A program made the translations under genes and the position numbers. Under the pieces are notes generated by a model that saw only the letters and a list, made by a program, of their open reading frames with translations, was not told the origin of the DNA and ran no database searches. This document shows, one piece after another, positions 18,483-59,069 of a stretch of DNA of 64,000 bases. Source of the stretch: Halarcobacter ebronensis (GTDB taxonomy: Bacteria > Campylobacterota > Campylobacteria > Campylobacterales > Arcobacteraceae); NCBI RefSeq assembly GCF_013201825.1, contig NZ_CP053836.1, forward strand, positions 1,178,001 through 1,242,000, in the 5' to 3' direction. Numbering within the stretch: the first letter of the stretch is position 1; each line of letters begins with the position of its first letter.

Positions 18483-19333
18483 TGGAAGCGCAATTAACCT
18501 GTTTTATTGGTTTTGAAAATGAATTTGAGGAGTCAAAGGCAGTTTTATTTGGTGCCCCTTTTGATGGGACAACATCATTTAAACCAGGCGCACGATTTGC
18601 TCCAAATGCAATGAGAGAAGACTCTTGGGCAATAGAGAGTTATAGTCCCTATTTAGATAAAGATTTAAACGATTTAAAACTTTTTGATTATGGGAATTTA
18701 GAACTTCCTTTTGGGGATAAAAAAAATGCTCTTAGAATGATACAAGAGATGACTCAAAGTATTATTGATGCAGGAAAAATACCAATTATGATTGGTGGAG
18801 AACATTTAGTTTCACTAGCTCCTGTAAAAGCATTAAGTAAAAAATATGAAGATTTAAATGTTATTCATTTTGATGCCCACACAGATTTAAGGGAAGATTA
18901 TTTAGGTGAAGCTTTAAGTCACGCAACAGTAATTAGAAGAATATATGACCAATTAGGCGATGGTAAAGTAAATCAATTTTGTATTAGAAGTGGACTGAAA
19001 GAGGAGTTTGAATGGGCAAAAAAACATACTCATTTAGAAAAATTTACTTATAATACTTTAGAGTCATGTGTAAGAAGATTAAAAGATAAACCTGTTTATA
19101 TAACAATAGATTTGGATGTATTTGATCCTTCAGTTTTCCCTGGAACTGGAACACCTGAACCAGGAGGAATAAATTTTCATCATATGTTAGAGATTATTAG
19201 CTTTTTGGGAAGACTTGAAAATGTAGTAGGGTTGGATATTGTGGAGCTTAGTCCTAAATATGATGCTAGTGGGGTTTCAACTGCTGTTGCTTGTAAAACT
19301 TTGAGAGAGTTGGTTTTAGCTACTATTAAGTAG
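18482..19333 (+). CDS. speB: Agmatinase (ureohydrolase family)
   Basis: Hydrolyses agmatine to putrescine and urea. The 283-aa protein has the binuclear manganese ligands of the arginase/agmatinase fold: GGEHL, HFDAHTDLR and ITIDLDVFDPS. The GTG start at 18482 has AAGGAG just upstream and shares a base with the rodA stop, so the two are coupled. The gene ends at TAG 19331-19333; the integron-type cassette array begins within 30 bases, making the speB 3' edge the insertion boundary. Confidence 0.88.
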   Translation: MEAQLTCFIGFENEFEESKAVLFGAPFDGTTSFKPGARFAPNAMREDSWAIESYSPYLDKDLNDLKLFDYGNLELPFGDKKNALRMIQEMTQSIIDAGKIPIMIGGEHLVSLAPVKALSKKYEDLNVIHFDAHTDLREDYLGEALSHATVIRRIYDQLGDGKVNQFCIRSGLKEEFEWAKKHTHLEKFTYNTLESCVRRLKDKPVYITIDLDVFDPSVFPGTGTPEPGGINFHHMLEIISFLGRLENVVGLDIVELSPKYDASGVSTAVACKTLRELVLATIK

Positions 19334-19362: not shown

Positions 19363-19393
19363 GTTATCGGGTCGCCGTAGGCGAGCCGATAAC
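19363..19393. repeat. 31-bp imperfect palindrome: vestigial cassette at the speB edge
   Basis: GTTATCGG and CCGATAAC arms flank an inner TCGCC/GGCGA stem. On the minus strand the outer arms are the R' box of the last attC (GTTATCG) and a further R''-like box (CGATAAC, 19369-19363), only 24 bases apart. This fits a nearly empty or truncated fourth cassette whose attC is cut off about 30 bases before the speB stop. It would also fold as a strong hairpin and could terminate speB transcription. Confidence 0.55.
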
Positions 19394-19458
19394 GTTTAAA
19401 ATGAGCAATCAAAAAGCCGCTCGCGGGTTTTTGATTGGTCTCCTTTGGTTTGTTATAT
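19387..19458 (-). other. attC site of cassette 3
   Basis: On the minus strand the R'' box ATATAAC (19458-19452) leads to CAAACCAAAGGAG, a 9-bp perfect arm of AATCAAAAA with inner CCGC/GCGG stem, then the R' box GTTATCG (19393-19387). The layout matches the next attC at 20274-20342 in spacing and flanks: AGGAG before the palindrome and TCATTT-AAAC after it. R'' pairs exactly with the TTATAT that opens its own cassette at 20279. Confidence 0.85.
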
Positions 19459-19461
19459 TTG

Positions 19462-20258
19462 TCATATACTGACATCGCTAATACTGTCTAATTTATATCG
19501 CTTAAGTTTTCCATCTCGGGAAAATATTTGTTTTACGACAGCTTTTAATGGTTTGAAATTTCCTCTTGTGACTTCTGCTAAATTATCAGCCATTAGCATC
19601 TTCTCACGATCCGTTAACTCGCGTTCCAACTCAAAACTGTACGATGTCGAATCAATAGATGTAATAAAGCGACCAGAGCCTGTTCGAGCATTAAAACGAC
19701 TTACTGCAACATCAACAACTTCATAATTTTCTGCTTCTTCTTCTGTTTCTAAATATTTTAATGTCTCATCATTGAATTCAATTAACAATTTATTTCCCAT
19801 TGACATTGCAATGGAATAACCCTGTTTTTTAACGGGCATATGAGCTGCCATTAAAGCATTTTCAAGCCTATGATGCAAATCTTCATTCCCTTTTTCAAGT
19901 TCTCGAATTCTCTTTTTTGCTTTTCTGTTGTTTATAATAAAAGGAATCCCAAGCAAACTACTAAACATATATTTTAATAAATCATACAGACCATTAGTAC
20001 CAAGGTTTTTTACAAGTTCCAATATGTCAGGATCGGCAATGATTAATTGTATAACCTGTTCAAGAGAACCCTCTTTAATACTAGACGAAATCCTTTTGAA
20101 GCTGGAGCTTTAACAATGATTTCATTGTGAATAAATGCATGAGTTGAAATCATCAGAAATTCAGACAACGCACTTAATGAATGTGTTCCATAGTACATAT
20201 CTAAGCCATCAAATTCAACCAATCCAGAGTCATATTTAATTTTAAATGTCATTTCCAT
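19462..20258 (-). pseudogene. Frameshifted gene of unknown function (cassette 3 cargo)
   Basis: Two overlapping frames encode one apparent ~264-aa protein. The first, from ATG 20258 with AAAGGA before it, gives MEMTFKIKYDSGLVEFDGLD and continues for 71 codons. The second carries the remaining residues and stays open upstream into the first, reading SSIKEGSLEQVIQLIIADPD across the first frame's stop. A single missing base near 20080-20090 accounts for the break. The predicted whole is a beta-rich N-terminal region, a hydrophobic segment (YMFSSLLGIPFIINN), a basic coiled coil and a C-terminal domain. No function is recognised. A sequencing error is possible; no slippery heptamer is present at the joint. 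Confidence 0.65.
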
Positions 20259-20273
20259 ATGTTGATTCCTTTA

Positions 20274-20342
20274 ATATAATGTTTGAAATGAGCCAATAAA
20301 TTTCCCGCAGGGTAATTTATTGGCTCCTCTGATTTGTTATGT
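20274..20342 (-). other. attC site of cassette 2
   Basis: On the minus strand R'' ACATAAC (20342-20336) is followed by AAATCAGAGG, then a perfect 12-bp palindrome arm (AGCCAATAAATT) around CCC/GGG, then TCATTTCAAAC and the R' box ATTATAT (20280-20274). The first R' base is A instead of the canonical G, a mild departure. R'' overlaps the stop codon of the upstream CDS and is the exact complement of GTTATGT at that cassette's 5' edge. Confidence 0.87.
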
Positions 20343-21692
20343 ATTTATTAACTCTTTTCTTTTATCAAGATAATCTTCAAAAGATAAATCTGAATAATGA
20401 ATCATATGGTCTATTATGCATCTAACATATCCATTTAATTCTTCGAACAGCTGTTTTCTCACATTTGTAGTAGGTAATAAGTTTTCTAAACGATCGCCAA
20501 TATGAACTATTCTTGTTCTTAATCCTACTTGTTCGCCAGTTAGAGAATCTATTTTACCAGTTAGTTCTTCGAATCTTTTTAGTAAGTCTTGGTATTCAGA
20601 AGAATTTGTATCTTGTATTATGTATCTTGAAATAACTTTTTTAACATCTTGAAATTTTTTATACTCTGTAGGATAGGCTAGAAATTCTAACAAGCTTAAA
20701 ATTTGAACAAATTTAGAAGTTGAAGATTCTGTTTTAATGATTTGTGAATATAAAATCATAGCATGATTAACTAACTTTCCAACTTCTCCATTTTTTGGGA
20801 ATATATCCCATTCTGGTTGCGATAAAGCAAGTCCTAATCCTTTTGTTGCTTGAGCGTTAAAAACAGCACCAGAAATTAATTTTGATTCATTGCTATTAAG
20901 ATTAACAAAAAGTACAGCCGACATATTGTTAACAAGAGTTTGACTAGGAGAAGAAGGAAGTTTATCATTAGAAATATGTGAAATTTTACAGTATTTATAT
21001 ATAAAAAAATTTAGATATTTTTGAGTTATTGTTTCGGATAAGTTAGATATTAGCTCTAAATGTTTTTCATGGCTGTAATTAAAAATAGTATCCAATGATA
21101 ATTTTATTGGTATGACAATAAGTGCATATTGATTTAAAGTTTCTATTGATATACCAGTAAGCTGAGATTGTAAAGATGATAATTCTGAAATTGAAAGTTC
21201 TGATGGATGTTTTTCTCTTAATTTAGAGATCTCTGTATTTATGAGTTTATACTTTGACAAATCCAATCTACCTTCAGGATAAATCATTATTCCTTCAGGA
21301 AGAAAAATACTTCTATTTGTTGCCAATCTCGAGATTGGTAGTATAGCAATTTGAAAACCATCTTCTATATATTTTTTATATGCAGTTTGTAAGTCTCCTA
21401 AGTCTATCTTTTCATAATCATTAGTGTCGTACCAATATTGATGATTTTCTGGAAATATTAATTCAATATCCTGCTCGTTTTCTACGGCTATCTTAGATGG
21501 CTCATCATCTGGAAGCAACCAACAATGTAAGCAGTATTCGCTACACCCTTTGATGTAGTCATAGGGAGGATAAAAATGACTGCTATTAATATCTGTATCA
21601 ATGATTTTATATGGATTATTACAAGAACTACAAAATCTAGTTATGTATAAATCATAATCATTAACATTAATTCCGTCTTTATTGATTTTCAA
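20337..21692 (-). CDS. Cys-motif protein with C-terminal HEPN-like domain (cassette 2 cargo)
   Basis: A 451-aa soluble protein of no recognised named family. The N-terminus holds two cysteine clusters (CSSC at 21-24 and CSEYCLHC at 50-57), spaced like a zinc ribbon. The C-terminal ~140 residues are helical and include LRTRIVHIGDRL, an R-x4-H motif (R392, H397) in the setting typical of ApeA-like HEPN domains, many of which are RNases in anti-phage or toxin systems. The TTG start at 21692 is supported by AAGGAG six bases upstream. It fills an integron cassette alone. Nuclease activity is an inference from the motif. Confidence 0.65.
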   Translation of the reverse strand: MKINKDGINVNDYDLYITRFCSSCNNPYKIIDTDINSSHFYPPYDYIKGCSEYCLHCWLLPDDEPSKIAVENEQDIELIFPENHQYWYDTNDYEKIDLGDLQTAYKKYIEDGFQIAILPISRLATNRSIFLPEGIMIYPEGRLDLSKYKLINTEISKLREKHPSELSISELSSLQSQLTGISIETLNQYALIVIPIKLSLDTIFNYSHEKHLELISNLSETITQKYLNFFIYKYCKISHISNDKLPSSPSQTLVNNMSAVLFVNLNSNESKLISGAVFNAQATKGLGLALSQPEWDIFPKNGEVGKLVNHAMILYSQIIKTESSTSKFVQILSLLEFLAYPTEYKKFQDVKKVISRYIIQDTNSSEYQDLLKRFEELTGKIDSLTGEQVGLRTRIVHIGDRLENLLPTTNVRKQLFEELNGYVRCIIDHMIHYSDLSFEDYLDKRKELINT

Positions 21693-21744: not shown

Positions 21745-21801
21745 ACATAACGGTTTACTTCACCGACAGGTTTAGCTGTTCGGTGCAAGGCTTTGTTAGT
21801 C
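21745..21801 (-). other. attC site of cassette 1
   Basis: On the minus strand R'' GACTAAC (21801-21795) leads to AAAGCCTTG, arms CACCGA and TCGGTG around a short loop, then AAGTAAACC and the R' box GTTATGT (21751-21745). At 57 bp it is the shortest and most classical attC of the array. R'' is the exact complement of GTTAGTC at 24493-24487, the other end of the same 2.7-kb cassette. Confidence 0.9.
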
Positions 21802-21807
21802 TATTTA

Positions 21808-23547
21808 TTAAGAATATGACAAGCCTAAATTCAAGCCAGCAAGTTGAATAGTTTCGTCATTATCATATCTAGTCGTTAGCAAGTCATATTTAGTATTTAA
21901 GTCTCGACCTTGCAATAATCCTTGTAATTCTACTAAAAAGTCATATTGTCTATTTTTGACTACATAGTCATCACACAGCACTACTTGTATATACTCTTCA
22001 TTGTAGTCATTAAGTAAGGTTAGCAATTCTGTAACATTGAAAGTTACAACTTTATACAAAAACAAAACTATTAGCGAATCAATGACATCATCAATATTTT
22101 TGATATTGGTGAAATCATTATCTTTAAATTCAATGGTTTCATAATCATTTTCTATCCATAGTTCACATATGGTTTGAATAACCTTACCACCATATTGAAT
22201 TGAGTTTGTTAGGTTTTTTAAAACCAATGCATTTATTACTTCTTTAGTATCTTCGAATTTCTCTGTTTCTGGAAGAGCTTTCCCTATTCTTTCCAAGTCT
22301 TCCAATGTAGAAAGATACAACAGCCTATTTGTAACAAATTTTAATTTTTGTGTATTTGCTCTATTCTCAGCGCTACTTGAATTGTCATAATCTAGCTTTA
22401 AAAGCTTATTGAATTCAATCAAATAAAATTTTTGTAGGTTGATGAGTTGTTTTACAATGTATTCATTTTTCGTAAAGTAAATTTCAAAAGTGCTATATCT
22501 TTTTTCATTCTTGATTAAACTCTTTATATAGGACATAAACCCTTTGCTTTTGGCTTGATTCTTGATTCTACTCAATGGAATATTGTAACCCAACGATTTA
22601 ATGTCTTGTTCCAAACTATCAATTTTTGAAGGATGCATCGATACATATGCAGTAATAAAATTCAGAACTTCAAATAAATTACCTTCTTCAAGATCATTGT
22701 TTGAATGCAGCAATTTCCATTCATCCAAAGTCAATTGATCAGTTTTTTCGGTATTGATATTTAGCTCATTTGGTAATGAAGCTTTTACATATTCAATGAC
22801 ATCATCTTTTTCTATTGCCTTGCATATTATAATAATGTCATCAACATATCTAAAATATTTTTCTGGAAATTGTTCAGATAGTTTAGTATCAAAGTCTTCT
22901 AAATAAATCTGAGCCATTAGATGACTTAATTCGGTACCTATAGGTACACCTTTTGAAGATTGTTCAAGAATTGAGTTTGTTATATTGCTTGCTAACTTAA
23001 AAATTTGAGGTTCAGTGTTCTCTTCAAGCTTTGCAATAAATTGATTTTTGACAGCTTCAATATTAATTGATGGATAAAATTTTGATAAATCCAATACAAG
23101 TGCTATTGAATTTTGATTTTCTAGTAAAGCCTTGTATACATCTTCATTTCTTCGTTTATAACCATTAAAATAATATTGAAAATTTCTAGTAGATTTTGTG
23201 TTTTCAGGAAGTAAGTAACTGTAAATAAATTTTTTGTTTTCTATAAAATTTTCTTGAGACATCAATCTCATCAAATATGATTCTGAGATTATTCCAAAAG
23301 GAGATAGAGATAATATGTCTCTGTAAATGAAATCATTTTCACTTTTTTCTTTATATAATTTATTTCTTTTTGTTGCCCAATGCTTTCTAACTTGAAGCTT
23401 TCTTTTTATTAACTCATCAAACAACTTGTTTCTCACTGATGATTCTGAAAAATCTTCGTAGAAGCAACGTATACTTAAATACAAAATTGGATTTAAAGTT
23501 TTTACTTGATTGAGTGACCTCATAGCAATATTATGGTAATTATTCAT
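21808..23547 (-). CDS. Reverse transcriptase of unassigned (UG/Abi-like) type, putative defence RT
   Basis: A 579-aa protein with a complete RT palm: ALVLDLSKFYPSI (motif A Asp, 153), SKGVPIGTELSHLMAQIYL (198-216) and the catalytic YFRYVDDIIII (YVDD, 234-237). About 330 helical residues with no recognised catalytic motif follow, as in Abi-like and other unknown-group RTs. The ATG at 23547 has AAGGGA upstream and is one base from the partner's stop; an upstream in-frame start would only add residues inside that gene. It lacks the retron VTG motif and space for an upstream msr-msd RNA. No maturase domain, intron RNA or DGR template repeat was seen. A role in phage defence is inferred from RT class and cassette context. 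Confidence 0.82.
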   Translation of the reverse strand: MNNYHNIAMRSLNQVKTLNPILYLSIRCFYEDFSESSVRNKLFDELIKRKLQVRKHWATKRNKLYKEKSENDFIYRDILSLSPFGIISESYLMRLMSQENFIENKKFIYSYLLPENTKSTRNFQYYFNGYKRRNEDVYKALLENQNSIALVLDLSKFYPSINIEAVKNQFIAKLEENTEPQIFKLASNITNSILEQSSKGVPIGTELSHLMAQIYLEDFDTKLSEQFPEKYFRYVDDIIIICKAIEKDDVIEYVKASLPNELNINTEKTDQLTLDEWKLLHSNNDLEEGNLFEVLNFITAYVSMHPSKIDSLEQDIKSLGYNIPLSRIKNQAKSKGFMSYIKSLIKNEKRYSTFEIYFTKNEYIVKQLINLQKFYLIEFNKLLKLDYDNSSSAENRANTQKLKFVTNRLLYLSTLEDLERIGKALPETEKFEDTKEVINALVLKNLTNSIQYGGKVIQTICELWIENDYETIEFKDNDFTNIKNIDDVIDSLIVLFLYKVVTFNVTELLTLLNDYNEEYIQVVLCDDYVVKNRQYDFLVELQGLLQGRDLNTKYDLLTTRYDNDETIQLAGLNLGLSYS

Positions 23548-23548
23548 G

Positions 23549-24445
23549 TTATTCCCTTGAATATTGCTTGAGGATAATCGCACTTTTTGGCGTATTCCCT
23601 GTAATTGGATCATGCCACTGAAATCTAGCATCAGGATTAATTGAAAGATTAATTACTTTGGATAACCATGTTGTCAATTTATTATGGAGTTTGTCTATAA
23701 ACCCTAAAAAGGTACTTGCTTCATTCGTGTTGGGTTCAATATACAATATAGTTGTATGCAAATGTGACAAGGCAGTTTGTATATAGTCAAAGGATTTATC
23801 AAATTTTTTATAATTACTGCTACCTACACCGCTAAAAGCCGACATGAGGACATAATGCTCTTCATATTTGTCTTCTTCTTTTAAGAACTGCCTTATTAAT
23901 AAATTCGTTGATTGTGGGTTTGTCGCGTCCCATTCGCAAGTTTCGTATTCAATAAAAATCAAATGTTGTTTAAGAACATTTTCTATCTCTTGCAACAACT
24001 GGCTATAAATCATTAATGCCGATGTTGAAAAGTCAGCTCCTACTATATTTACATGCAATGGCAACTTTGGCAGTTTCGAATGGAACCGTAATTCTGCGAG
24101 ACTTGTAAGCAGTGACAGTATCCCCGCACCCGTACCCGCAGGGATATCTAATATAGATATTTCCCCACTACTAAATGTGGATTTTAAATTATTAGAAACT
24201 GTTTTGAAGTCTTCTCTTGGATCAATTACAACAAATTGTGTTCGAGCTGATGAAGTTAAAAATCTTTCTGCAAAATGTTTTTTTGTTTCATCATCATTTC
24301 TACCACCAGTGGCTCCTACAGAATTGTTTGTATGATTCTTTGCATGCTCATACATAGATAATGCAATTAATTTGTTTTTATAAACCTCTATGAGGCTTTC
24401 TGGTTGGTAAAGAATGTTATCTTTCCATAAACTATCTGGAGTCAT
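23549..24445 (-). CDS. SAM-dependent methyltransferase-like protein paired with the RT
   Basis: A 298-aa cytoplasmic protein with a Rossmann-type SAM-binding motif ISILDIPAGTGAGILSLL (about 97-113), followed by VNIVGADFSTSALMIYSQLL, the acidic end of the second strand. Strand-like CEWDATNP and HYVLMSAFSGVGSSNYKKFD follow. A target motif such as NPPY is not visible, so the substrate is unknown and the fold may be used for something other than methylation. ATG 24445 (AGGA upstream) is preferred to GTG 24460. It is the first gene of cassette 1 and one base before the RT, so the pair travels and is translated as a unit. Confidence 0.65.
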   Translation of the reverse strand: MTPDSLWKDNILYQPESLIEVYKNKLIALSMYEHAKNHTNNSVGATGGRNDDETKKHFAERFLTSSARTQFVVIDPREDFKTVSNNLKSTFSSGEISILDIPAGTGAGILSLLTSLAELRFHSKLPKLPLHVNIVGADFSTSALMIYSQLLQEIENVLKQHLIFIEYETCEWDATNPQSTNLLIRQFLKEEDKYEEHYVLMSAFSGVGSSNYKKFDKSFDYIQTALSHLHTTILYIEPNTNEASTFLGFIDKLHNKLTTWLSKVINLSINPDARFQWHDPITGNTPKSAIILKQYSRE

Positions 24446-24486
24446 AGATTTCCTATTCACTGTGTTTTAATATGGGGCACATTTCA

Positions 24487-24493
24487 GACTAAC
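24487..24493 (-). other. 5' boundary of cassette 1 (R' box GTTAGTC)
   Basis: On the minus strand GTTAGTC marks the recombination edge; the cassette begins at TTAGTC (24492). It is the exact reverse complement of the R'' box at 21801-21795. No complete attC stem is visible on the far side, so whatever preceded it in the array is lost or strongly decayed. A TATAAT-like box on the minus strand at 24515-24510 could be a promoter that reads into the array. Confidence 0.7.
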
Positions 24494-24783
24494 TAATTAT
24501 TAGTAATACATTATATATAAATAATATATAAAAATATCTAATATCTTAACATTAAAAATGTAAAGATATTAACTCAATTAGATGATAAATGGTCTAAATT
24601 CAATGAAATATAAAATGACATCAAGAAATATGTAATTATTTATGTTAGATTATCAAGGTATATCATTAATATTTTATCATTTTGTATGACTATTAGATGA
24701 AAAACTTGATAGTTTAACAAAATGATAAATATATTATTGTAAAAATAATTTTCAAAATAATTGAGTTTACTTAAACTTTAAAC
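24494..24783. other. AT-rich non-coding stretch with one imperfect hairpin
   Basis: There is no credible gene here. The only structure noted is 24540-24570, an 8+5-bp stem (AATATCTT, one mismatch, ACATT) with a three-base loop and no T-run. It lies upstream of the cassette genes on their strand and could end an upstream transcript, but lacks R''/R' boxes and so is not an attC. Confidence 0.5.
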
Positions 24784-25047
24784 AACTTTCTTTTGTGAAA
24801 AAGAAAGTAACAAAAAAATCACCCTACAAGGTTTTGAAGGCGTAGCTTCCCTCTTTTATTATTTATCTCTTTTGAGTGAGTAAAAACTTGCTAAAGAGTG
24901 CATTAAAGCACTCTTTTTAACGCTTCAAACAGTTTACTCACTTGTTTTCAAAAGAGATAAATAAACACTCGGCTTCAAAAATGTAGGGAATGGGATAAGG
25001 ACATTTGATTTTTTAATACCATTTTATTTAGATTTGTGTCTCAGTAA
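24784..25047 (-). repeat. Composite structured intergenic repeat, copy 1
   Basis: Read on the minus strand it runs: AAAATGGTATTAAAAAA, about 35 spacer bases, GAAGCCGAGTGTTTATTTAT, a long hairpin (arms TCTCTTTTG with AGTGAGTAAA, apical AAAGAGTGC/GCACTCTTT), ATAATAAAAGAGGGAAGCT, CGCCTTCAAAACC, then TTACTTTCTTTTTC and its inverted copy. The same ordered blocks recur at 58122-58357 with a different hairpin sequence. Both copies border accessory regions. Function is unknown. Confidence 0.7.
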
Positions 25048-25219: not shown

Positions 25220-26191
25220 TTAAATCCTATTTGGCTCATAGACTTCATTATTTTTATAAATTGAATGAGCAATAATTAATAATTTTCGCATAATTGCAAC
25301 TTGTATAACTGTTGTGTGTTTCCCATTCTCTTTTAACCTATCATAAAAACTTTTTAATCTTTCATTATGTCGTACAGATGTCATTGCTGGCATAAACAAA
25401 GTACCTCTACATATTTTTGAACCTGCTTTTGATATTTTAGTCTTACCTTTAACTGAACTTCCTGAACTCTTTTCTATTGGATCTAATCCTGCTAGGGATA
25501 CTATTTGTTTTTGATTGGCATTTGGATATTGTGTGAAATGTGATAATAATACTATTGCAGATATTTCTCCTATACCATCAATTGTTTGAATATTTTTAAA
25601 TGCTTCTTGGAGTTTCTCATCTTTTTTTATCATAGATTTAATTTGTTTAATAAGTTTTAATTCTTGCTTTTTTAAAAATTGATACTGTGATTCTAACTCT
25701 TTAATTGAATAGCTCTTTTCTCTTTTTGCTTTTAAAGCTGCAATATGATTTTTGGCTATTACTTGTTGTTTAATAATAAGTTTATAACAGGCTATTAATT
25801 CTTTTAACTCTTCTTCAACCGAATTAATTATAGGTACTTTAATATCTTCATTTTTAGCTGTTACAATCATCTTAGAAAGTAATCTAGCATCTTTTATATC
25901 TGTTTTATTTCTATGTCCGATTACTTTCGCAAAGCTTGCACTTTTTTTAGGATTGACAATAAAACTTTTTATATTTTGATTTGCACAAAAAGATTTTAAT
26001 AAAAAAGAGTAATTAGAAGTTGGTTCATAAACAAACACTAATTTATCCAGTTCTTTTTTATAATATTTTTTTAATTTAGAATATAAACTTTTTATTGATT
26101 TTAGATTATTCTCAATAATCAAATCTAAATCATTATATGGAACATACACATTGATTGTTGACTTACTAATATCTAATCCGATAGAATACAT
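25220..26191 (-). CDS. IS110-family transposase (DEDD recombinase)
   Basis: A 323-aa recombinase of the IS110 family. The N-terminal RuvC-like domain starts IGLDISKSTINVYV and has VYEPTSNY and HRNKTDIKDARLLSKM, supplying the acidic DEDD residues. After a coiled-coil linker the C-terminal Transposase_20 domain reads IQTIDGIGEISAIVLLSHF and LAGLDPIEKSSGSSVKG, with the Ser-rich segment holding the conserved serine. Length is full, so the element may be active. It sits just upstream of the cassette array in transcription order and may have truncated it. IS110 elements lack clear terminal inverted repeats, so the ends are not defined. Confidence 0.92.
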   Translation of the reverse strand: MYSIGLDISKSTINVYVPYNDLDLIIENNLKSIKSLYSKLKKYYKKELDKLVFVYEPTSNYSFLLKSFCANQNIKSFIVNPKKSASFAKVIGHRNKTDIKDARLLSKMIVTAKNEDIKVPIINSVEEELKELIACYKLIIKQQVIAKNHIAALKAKREKSYSIKELESQYQFLKKQELKLIKQIKSMIKKDEKLQEAFKNIQTIDGIGEISAIVLLSHFTQYPNANQKQIVSLAGLDPIEKSSGSSVKGKTKISKAGSKICRGTLFMPAMTSVRHNERLKSFYDRLKENGKHTTVIQVAIMRKLLIIAHSIYKNNEVYEPNRI

Positions 26192-58063: not shown

Positions 58064-58357
58064 CACCCCAGAGGATGAATCTCCACTTCTAAAACAATTG
58101 TTGAGTATCACACCAACTAAAACAAAATGGTACTAAAAAATGCAAAGGTCGTTTTCCCTCCTTCCCGCATTTGAGAAGCCGAGTGTTTATTTATTGTTTA
58201 TAAAGAGTTTTGTAACTGTCTGAGCATAAAAAATATGCTGGGAGCATATTTTTATGTGAGTTTTACAAAACAGAAACAATAAATAATAAGAGAGGGGAGC
58301 TTCTGCCTTCAAAACCCGCGGGTTGCTTTTTATTTTACTTTTTTCAATAAAAAAGTG
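58064..58357 (+). repeat. Composite structured intergenic repeat, copy 2
   Basis: Ordered blocks: a peptide-like tail (TPEDESPLLKQLLSITPTKT), AAAATGGTACTAAAAAA, spacer with CCTTCCCGCATTT, GAAGCCGAGTGTTTATTTAT (58175-58194), and a hairpin with arms AGCATAAAAAATATGCT and AGCATATTTTTATG. Then come AATAAATAATAAGAGAGGGG, GCCTTCAAAACCC, and TTTACTTTTTTC with its inverted copy. It aligns block by block with the minus-strand copy at 24784-25047, except that the hairpin stem sequence is different. Confidence 0.7.
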
Positions 58358-58658
58358 AATATTTAGAATTTATCTCTCATAATATCTAGTAATTTTTTGC
58401 CCATTTTTTACTCCTAAATAATATAAGTGTTGTTTAAAGTTGATTTTTTACTTTTTACATACATTATGTATATTAAAGTTCTAAGTATCGATATAAAATA
58501 AACAAAAAAATTATAACTTATAATAAAAATATAGATAAAAATTATTGCATATTGTAATATAATTTTTACAAACATACATAAAATAGGATCTTTTAAGAAT
58601 ATATAATAAATAAGTAGATTTAAGTACTTTATTTATATAATATGCATTCAATAAATTA
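58358..58658. other. AT-rich non-coding stretch before the solo cassette
   Basis: About 300 bases with very low GC and no credible gene in either direction. No full attC is seen at its right edge, so the cassette at 58659 does not have a recognisable upstream neighbour. It may carry a promoter for the cassette gene but no box stands out. Confidence 0.4.
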
Positions 58659-59063
58659 TTAGATAAGTATAAAAGGATTCAAATGATTAGAATAGCAAAA
58701 AATACAATTGATGATGTATTAAGTTGGAATAAACTGCTTGTTGGAATTAATTCATCAGCAATTGGTGCATTGTTCTTCAAGCTGACAAGTTTAGAAAATA
58801 ATATAATTCACTTGTCAGTTAATATCGCAACTAACTCATTTTTGTTATCACTATTTTCTTTATTAATATTTCATACAGTATTAATTAATCATAGAAATAA
58901 TAATAACAATGATGTCTTACCATTGATATATAGCTTTGTCTTTATAATCGGTTGGGTATCTTTGATTATCGGTTTTTGTTCATTAGTATGGCCATTCACT
59001 ATCTAACAAATCATTGGAGAGAAATATTTGACCCTGCGGCTAAAATATTTCTCAACTCAACCG
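58659..59063 (+). mobile_element. Solo integron-type gene cassette
   Basis: The cassette begins TTAGAT (58659, preceded by A) and ends with an attC whose R'' box is ATCTAAC, the exact complement of GTTAGAT. It holds one small membrane-protein gene, 18 bases after the AT-rich cassette edge. Orientation is opposite to the 19-24 kb array. No integrase lies nearby. Confidence 0.8.
58683..59006 (+). CDS. Small polytopic membrane protein (cassette cargo)
   Basis: A 107-aa protein with about three membrane helices (LLVGINSSAIGALFFKL, ATNSFLLSLFSLLIFHTVLI, LIYSFVFIIGWVSLIIGFCS) and an Asn-rich loop (RNNNNND). No family is recognised. AAAAGGATTC precedes the ATG, and the stop codon falls inside the R'' box of the attC, a compact layout typical of integron cassettes. 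Small membrane proteins are frequent in cassettes; some are toxins or abortive-infection effectors, but nothing here proves that. Confidence 0.7.
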   Translation: MIRIAKNTIDDVLSWNKLLVGINSSAIGALFFKLTSLENNIIHLSVNIATNSFLLSLFSLLIFHTVLINHRNNNNNDVLPLIYSFVFIIGWVSLIIGFCSLVWPFTI

Positions 59064-59069
59064 TTAGCT
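59001..59069 (+). other. attC site of the solo cassette
   Basis: R'' ATCTAAC (59001-59007) is followed by AAATCATTGG, palindrome arms AGAGAAATATTT and AAATATTTCT around a GACCCTGCGGC-like centre, then CAACTCAACC and the R' box GTTAGCT (59063-59069). It matches the attC sites at 19-22 kb in length and layout (AAATCA after R'', an AAC-containing spacer before R'). Confidence 0.88.

Follow-up and report, generated by a model that had tools for sequence, protein, structure and literature searches.

A candidate two-protein UG/DRT defense system, a UG36 reverse transcriptase with a methyltransferase-like partner, carried as an integron cassette in Halarcobacter ebronensis

Two adjacent genes in the window, the 64,000-nucleotide stretch of Halarcobacter ebronensis DNA analyzed here, probably encode a two-protein defense system of the UG/DRT kind. 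As judged from sequence comparisons, a UG36 reverse transcriptase (RT) is coupled to an obligate methyltransferase-like partner, and the pair would be mobile as one unit, an integron cassette in this genome and a bare two-gene insertion elsewhere. In the ORF listing of the window the partner came first and the two ORFs were separated by one base (TAA C ATG). The sequence-only reading of this DNA had described a 298-aa protein with a glycine loop one base from a 579-aa RT with a YVDD motif, and the ORFs were indeed placed in this way. The glycine loop (DIPAGTGAG) was located at about residues 100-108 of the partner, and the RT carries YVDD at residues 234-237 and the catalytic residue D153. The partner ORF was taken to begin at the ATG at 24445; an alternative GTG at 24460 would add five residues, and the partner of a relative (L045) begins at the equivalent ATG. 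The limits that the same reading had given, 21751-24492, proved in the attC and box analysis to be the exact limits of an integron cassette, and its statement that both genes share one cassette was literally correct. The features are:

21751-24492, minus strand: cassette 1, with both ORFs; R' box GTTAGTC at 24493-24487
23549-24445, minus strand: methyltransferase-like gene, 298 aa; predicted class I SAM-methyltransferase fold; partner of the RT
21808-23547, minus strand: UG36 reverse transcriptase gene, 579 aa from ATG
21745-21801, minus strand: attC of cassette 1, R'' GACTAAC ... R' GTTATGT; short type; 20.7 bits, E 0.1
20337-21692, minus strand: cassette 2 gene, 451 aa, TTG start; CxxC-like pairs near the N-terminus
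20275-20342, minus strand: attC of cassette 2, R'' ACATAAC; R' with G mutated to A; 80.5 bits, E 1.9e-15
19462-20258, minus strand: cassette 3 gene, DUF7946/DUF7947-type; PHROG 13337
19387-19458, minus strand: attC of cassette 3, R'' ATATAAC; 60.3 bits, E 8e-11

The RT was searched against the UG/DRT models of PADLOC and matched RT_UG36 with an E-value of 2.5e-161 (residues 4-579 on model positions 2-556 of 557), the second-best PADLOC model reaching E 8.6e-23. By this measure it is a full-length UG36 RT of the UG/Abi type, in agreement with the UG/DRT-type identity that had been suggested earlier. UG36 is already included in PADLOC as a candidate DRT (RT_UG36, PDLC03775); the UG classes themselves were reportedly defined by Mestre et al. 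2022. The motif A aspartate and YVDD were invariant in all seven UG36 members compared. Ratios of dN/dS across five pairs were 0.08-0.26 for both genes, indicating purifying selection, and these values together with the RT_UG36 match argue that the ORF pair is not a chance occurrence. A retron identity was rejected, as the sequence-only reading had proposed, on the basis of a retron_St85_RT score of 46 bits against a cut-off of 235, the absence of VTG, and the lack of room for an msr-msd RNA. Its exclusion of a group II intron RT was likewise borne out by a score of 50 bits for the RT-maturase profile (cut-off 300). Neither an established function nor a study of UG36 was found in the literature searched, and the class thus brought no different established function into conflict with the proposed defense role.

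Structure predictions for the two proteins were of moderate quality (mean pLDDT 69-70, with 69 for the RT; pTM 0.72 and 0.64), and RT residues 526-579 were mostly unreliable. The C-terminal half of the RT model is helical. When this whole, moderate model was submitted to Foldseek, DRT6, AbiK, UG15/DRT4 and AbiA ranked best, with TM-scores of about 0.3. With a second aligner, group II intron RTs gave the top match through their RT domain, and AbiA was aligned over residues 1 to 579.

The RT family and the partner profile, searched independently of each other, both led to the same four of 397 Campylobacterota genomes. Family-level searches added G411, G418 and G471; the pairs beyond the first four are those at L045, L011 and L049. 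Seven loci were compared (the window, L045, L047, L049, L006, L011 and L012), and all contained both genes in the same order, with a gap of 1 or 4 bp or an overlap of 4-8 bp. Identity to the window copy was as low as 27% for the RT and 33-35% for the partner. No solo partner gene was found in 399 order-level genomes except for two partial hits of 19 bits, which are probably other methylases. By sequence, the UG36 RT and its partner strictly co-occur in the Campylobacterota loci found; homologues with the two genes usually apart, against which the sequence-only reading had set its claim of a unit, did not occur. Contig scans for UG36 relatives outside Campylobacterota gave two Arcobacteraceae loci and none with the RT by itself. 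Viral scans gave only distant RTs lacking the partner, scans of phages gave none, and a plasmid scan gave one UG36 relative.

A second PADLOC model bears on this pairing. Positions 22-181 of the UG35 model (PDLC03774) matched the partner (E 2.7e-12) and positions 423-783 matched the RT (E 4.9e-15). Because its N-terminal part matches the partner and its middle the RT, the model appears to describe both in one chain, and UG35 would be an apparent fused form of the pair. A profile search of the 397 Campylobacterota genomes gave no UG35, so the evidence for the fused form is the PADLOC model itself. Strict pairing, tight spacing and the finding of no partner gene without an RT would also suit a toxin-antitoxin-like arrangement, in which the RT or its DNA would hold the methyltransferase-like protein inactive and inhibition of the RT by a phage would free a toxic methyltransferase. 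Retrons and DRT1 use DNA as a safety device (PMC13275509), but the sequence fits either order of control, and we regard this arrangement as possible yet doubtful.

The limits of the transferred unit were determined by comparison of close relatives. Between L006 and L011, 96% identity starts 1 bp upstream of the partner ATG and continues until about 6 bp past the RT stop, and outside this stretch the two are unrelated; for L047 and L049 the shared stretch starts 69 bp upstream of the partner and ends at the RT stop. At L047 and L045 the pair lies alone between housekeeping genes, and at L011 the neighboring genes are 0 bp away on the upstream side and 17 bp away on the downstream side. Since the DNA common to close relatives is exactly the two ORFs, the transferred unit would have no space for a non-coding RNA encoded in cis like that of DRT2, DRT9 or DRT10, which argues against such an RNA. 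No conserved non-coding RNA gene was found beside the RT in the close-relative comparison, homology stopping at the ORFs, and a search of the region for Rfam families gave no hit. Signs of an RNA hidden within the ORFs were also sought, and no segment with reduced synonymous change was shared by two clades; a template could nonetheless lie within the ORFs or act in trans. These results weigh against a class 2-like DRT, in which the RT would copy an RNA template located in coding DNA or elsewhere and the methyltransferase-like protein would modify or protect RNA. In its favor, the RT gives cross-hits to Drt3a and UG17, both assigned to class 2 (PMC12632851, PMC13174585), and the best fold matches of the partner, described below, are METTL17, which takes part in rRNA assembly, and other methylases of RNA or protein. 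The RT domain scores about equally against class 2 models and others in PADLOC, so that its placement in class 1, 2 or 3, and with it template-free synthesis, is provisional. Given that L006 and L011 share no conserved DNA outside the ORFs, we consider a class 2-like system unlikely.

The pair is cassette 1 of a three-cassette array that has no integrase gene. This assignment is based on its own 5' box, which complements the R'' box of its own attC, as in the neighboring cassettes and in a true integron. The 5' box and R'' pairs are GTTAGTC/GACTAAC, GTTATGT/ACATAAC and (G>A)TTATAT/ATATAAC for cassettes 1 to 3. The complement rule therefore held for three of three window cassettes, with one G>A change at the start of cassette 3, and all four cassettes obeyed it in L066, the integron array that adjoins an intact intI in G390, a member of the same genus. 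The covariance model used to score attC sites was built from sites of other species only, with no window sites. It placed the attC sites of cassettes 2 and 3 at 20275-20341 and 19388-19457. The attC of cassette 1 is weak against this model, yet its R'' box and the cassette 5' end are exactly complementary. Scores for intI exceeded the cut-off in 4 of 16 genus members, H. ebronensis not among them; no complete intI was found in its genome, where the best partial hit was 77.8 bits (cut-off 265), and a relic of 12 intI codons was located near 58363-58400. An attI site just upstream of cassette 1 was considered and rejected because the alignment was no better than shuffles.

Several other features of the array and its surroundings were observed. 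The 451-aa protein of cassette 2 had no family match in four profile libraries, and the cassette 3 gene (19462-20258) seems to be frameshifted, with two ORFs of 71 and 186 aa. The region 58363-59068 of the window is a relic integron platform: the first 12 intI codons and the sequence upstream match G390 (score 344; shuffles at most 55), the rest of intI is gone, and the relic is followed by one cassette whose attC, at 59002-59068, was found by the same covariance model (E 6.4e-14). Across the whole genome, which lacks a full intI, the model gave ten matches (both strands counted) in about four clusters. A non-coding stretch upstream of cassette 1 (24516-25039) is repeated beside the intI relic (58101-58344) and recurs in sister species (L051 and L052) near the hot spot described below. 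An IS110-family transposase gene (25220-26191) lies upstream of the array on the same strand. The A. faecis copy of the pair is followed by a 272-aa gene (L006 10061-10940) whose end is an attC belonging to the same family (E 9.7e-13), and the 31 bp that precede this gene are similar to the G390 attI region (score 41, against 38 for the best shuffle).

The array occupies a variable region that extends from speB (ending at 19333) to 34614, with both flanks conserved in five sister species. Defense genes were present at the equivalent chromosomal site in three of these five, namely an SpbK-type TIR gene in G395, AbiLi/AbiLii (AbiL) in G424 and a 1424-aa STAND ATPase in G434; no clear defense gene was seen at the site in G390 or G433. 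Sites of the attC type adjoin speB in G395, G292 and G427, while G424 has a short-type attC site and G434 a partial one. The AbiLi/AbiLii (RloA/RloB-like) pair of G424 (L053 5261-7314) stands beside its short attC-like site and is perhaps a second two-ORF defense cassette. Elsewhere, the UG36 copy at L011 adjoins CBASS, and those at L006, L011 and L012 adjoin type I restriction genes. Integron cassettes of Vibrio are known reservoirs of defense genes (PMC12409362), and defense cassettes borne by Vibrio and mobile integrons have been described (Darracq 2025 and Kieffer 2025, as cited in PMC12409362). The RT class is uncharacterized in the literature searched, which would leave room for a selfish or housekeeping retroelement with no defense role. 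Such an element is very unlikely in our view, given the sporadic distribution of the pair (4 of 397 genomes), the defense-rich sites that it occupies, and the fact that no RNA template, repeats or target-site features were seen.

The partner had no family match in Pfam, NCBIfam or PHROG, and its relatives reached Methyltransf_31 with a weak E-value of 0.004. Its predicted fold is that of a class I SAM-methyltransferase with an additional N-terminal helical part. The closest structures were human METTL17, which is chain 7 in the mitochondrial small-subunit assembly intermediates (Z 11.9, 225 residues), and SCL3, a GRAS protein of plants (Z 10.4, 200 residues); many methylases came next, at about Z 9. 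No sequence-level link to either protein was seen by sequence comparison, and a relationship of the partner to GRAS or METTL17 by sequence was rejected. The GxG loop (motif I) and the motif II aspartate D138 were invariant in seven of seven members, and the clade formed by L006, L011 and L012 has tyrosine in place of the motif I aspartate. At the motif IV position all members have S-A/N-F-S-G, and the motif of DNA base methyltransferases (D/N/S-PP-Y/F/W or PC) is absent from all. As the SAM-binding loop is kept and both DPPY and PC are missing, ordinary restriction-type DNA methylation by the partner is unlikely. Catalysis by the partner is putative, and the closest folds, METTL17 and plant GRAS proteins, include binder proteins.

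For the UG36 system as a two-protein defense unit, the following mechanism is proposed. Tight spacing and the apparent fusion in UG35 suggest that the RT and its partner would form a complex. The RT would make non-genomic DNA without a cis non-coding RNA, most likely by protein-primed, template-free synthesis as in class 1 and class 3 DRTs. The tyrosines Y23, Y111 and Y561 of the RT are invariant and are candidates for the priming residue. This DNA, or its absence during infection, could switch the state of the partner, which as the effector would methylate or sequester an essential host or phage molecule. Phage growth would then stop, and the outcome may be abortive. The scheme is modeled on DRT1 of class 3, in which protein-primed, template-free DNA activates and restrains a fused nitrilase (PMC13275509), with the SAM-fold partner in place of the nitrilase. 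More tentatively, the pair could represent a new DRT type, spread by integrons, whose RT would control its effector through DNA made without a template; the effector would be a SAM-dependent methyltransferase acting on a small molecule, RNA or protein, and not on DNA. If true, this would be the first DRT with a methyltransferase as its effector.

Most UG RT classes are untested, and UG36 now gains a minimal unit of two ORFs with no flanking RNA. The fold of its obligate partner is unusual for defense, and with UG35 as an apparent natural fused form, tests of the components would be straightforward. The results also point to Campylobacterota integron cassettes as carriers of multi-gene defense systems. 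According to the sequence-only reading, no described defense RT with this type of partner was known, and this holds in part: the separate partner is new to the literature searched, yet the RT falls within the known class UG36, and a related methyltransferase-like domain is apparently fused in UG35. None of four features read here from sequence (a partner on its own chain, its strict pairing with the RT, a unit without RNA, and the integron cassette form) was found in the literature searched, which did not include Mestre et al. 2022; the UG35 model hints at the partnership.

The comparison with known systems may be summarized as follows. The RT is a full-length match to the UG36 RTs (PDLC03775), and its partner gene matched no separate partner model in PADLOC. 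The single fused UG35 model of 938 positions matches both proteins in the same order, but the RT described here is far closer to UG36. In the Foldseek comparison the whole RT model was closest to AbiK, AbiA, DRT4 (UG15) and DRT6 (UG12), at about 15% identity, and the matches took in portions of its helical C-terminal half; to our knowledge no such partner accompanies any of them. Defense cassettes of Vibrio and mobile integrons are likewise attC cassettes, whereas the present one holds a two-ORF RT system and lies in a member of the Campylobacterota with no full intI. Finally, the class 3 systems DRT1 and DRT5 similarly couple an RT to an enzyme domain unusual in defense (a nitrilase or a phosphohydrolase) and have helical repeats, but the enzyme fold differs and the partner here is a separate polypeptide.
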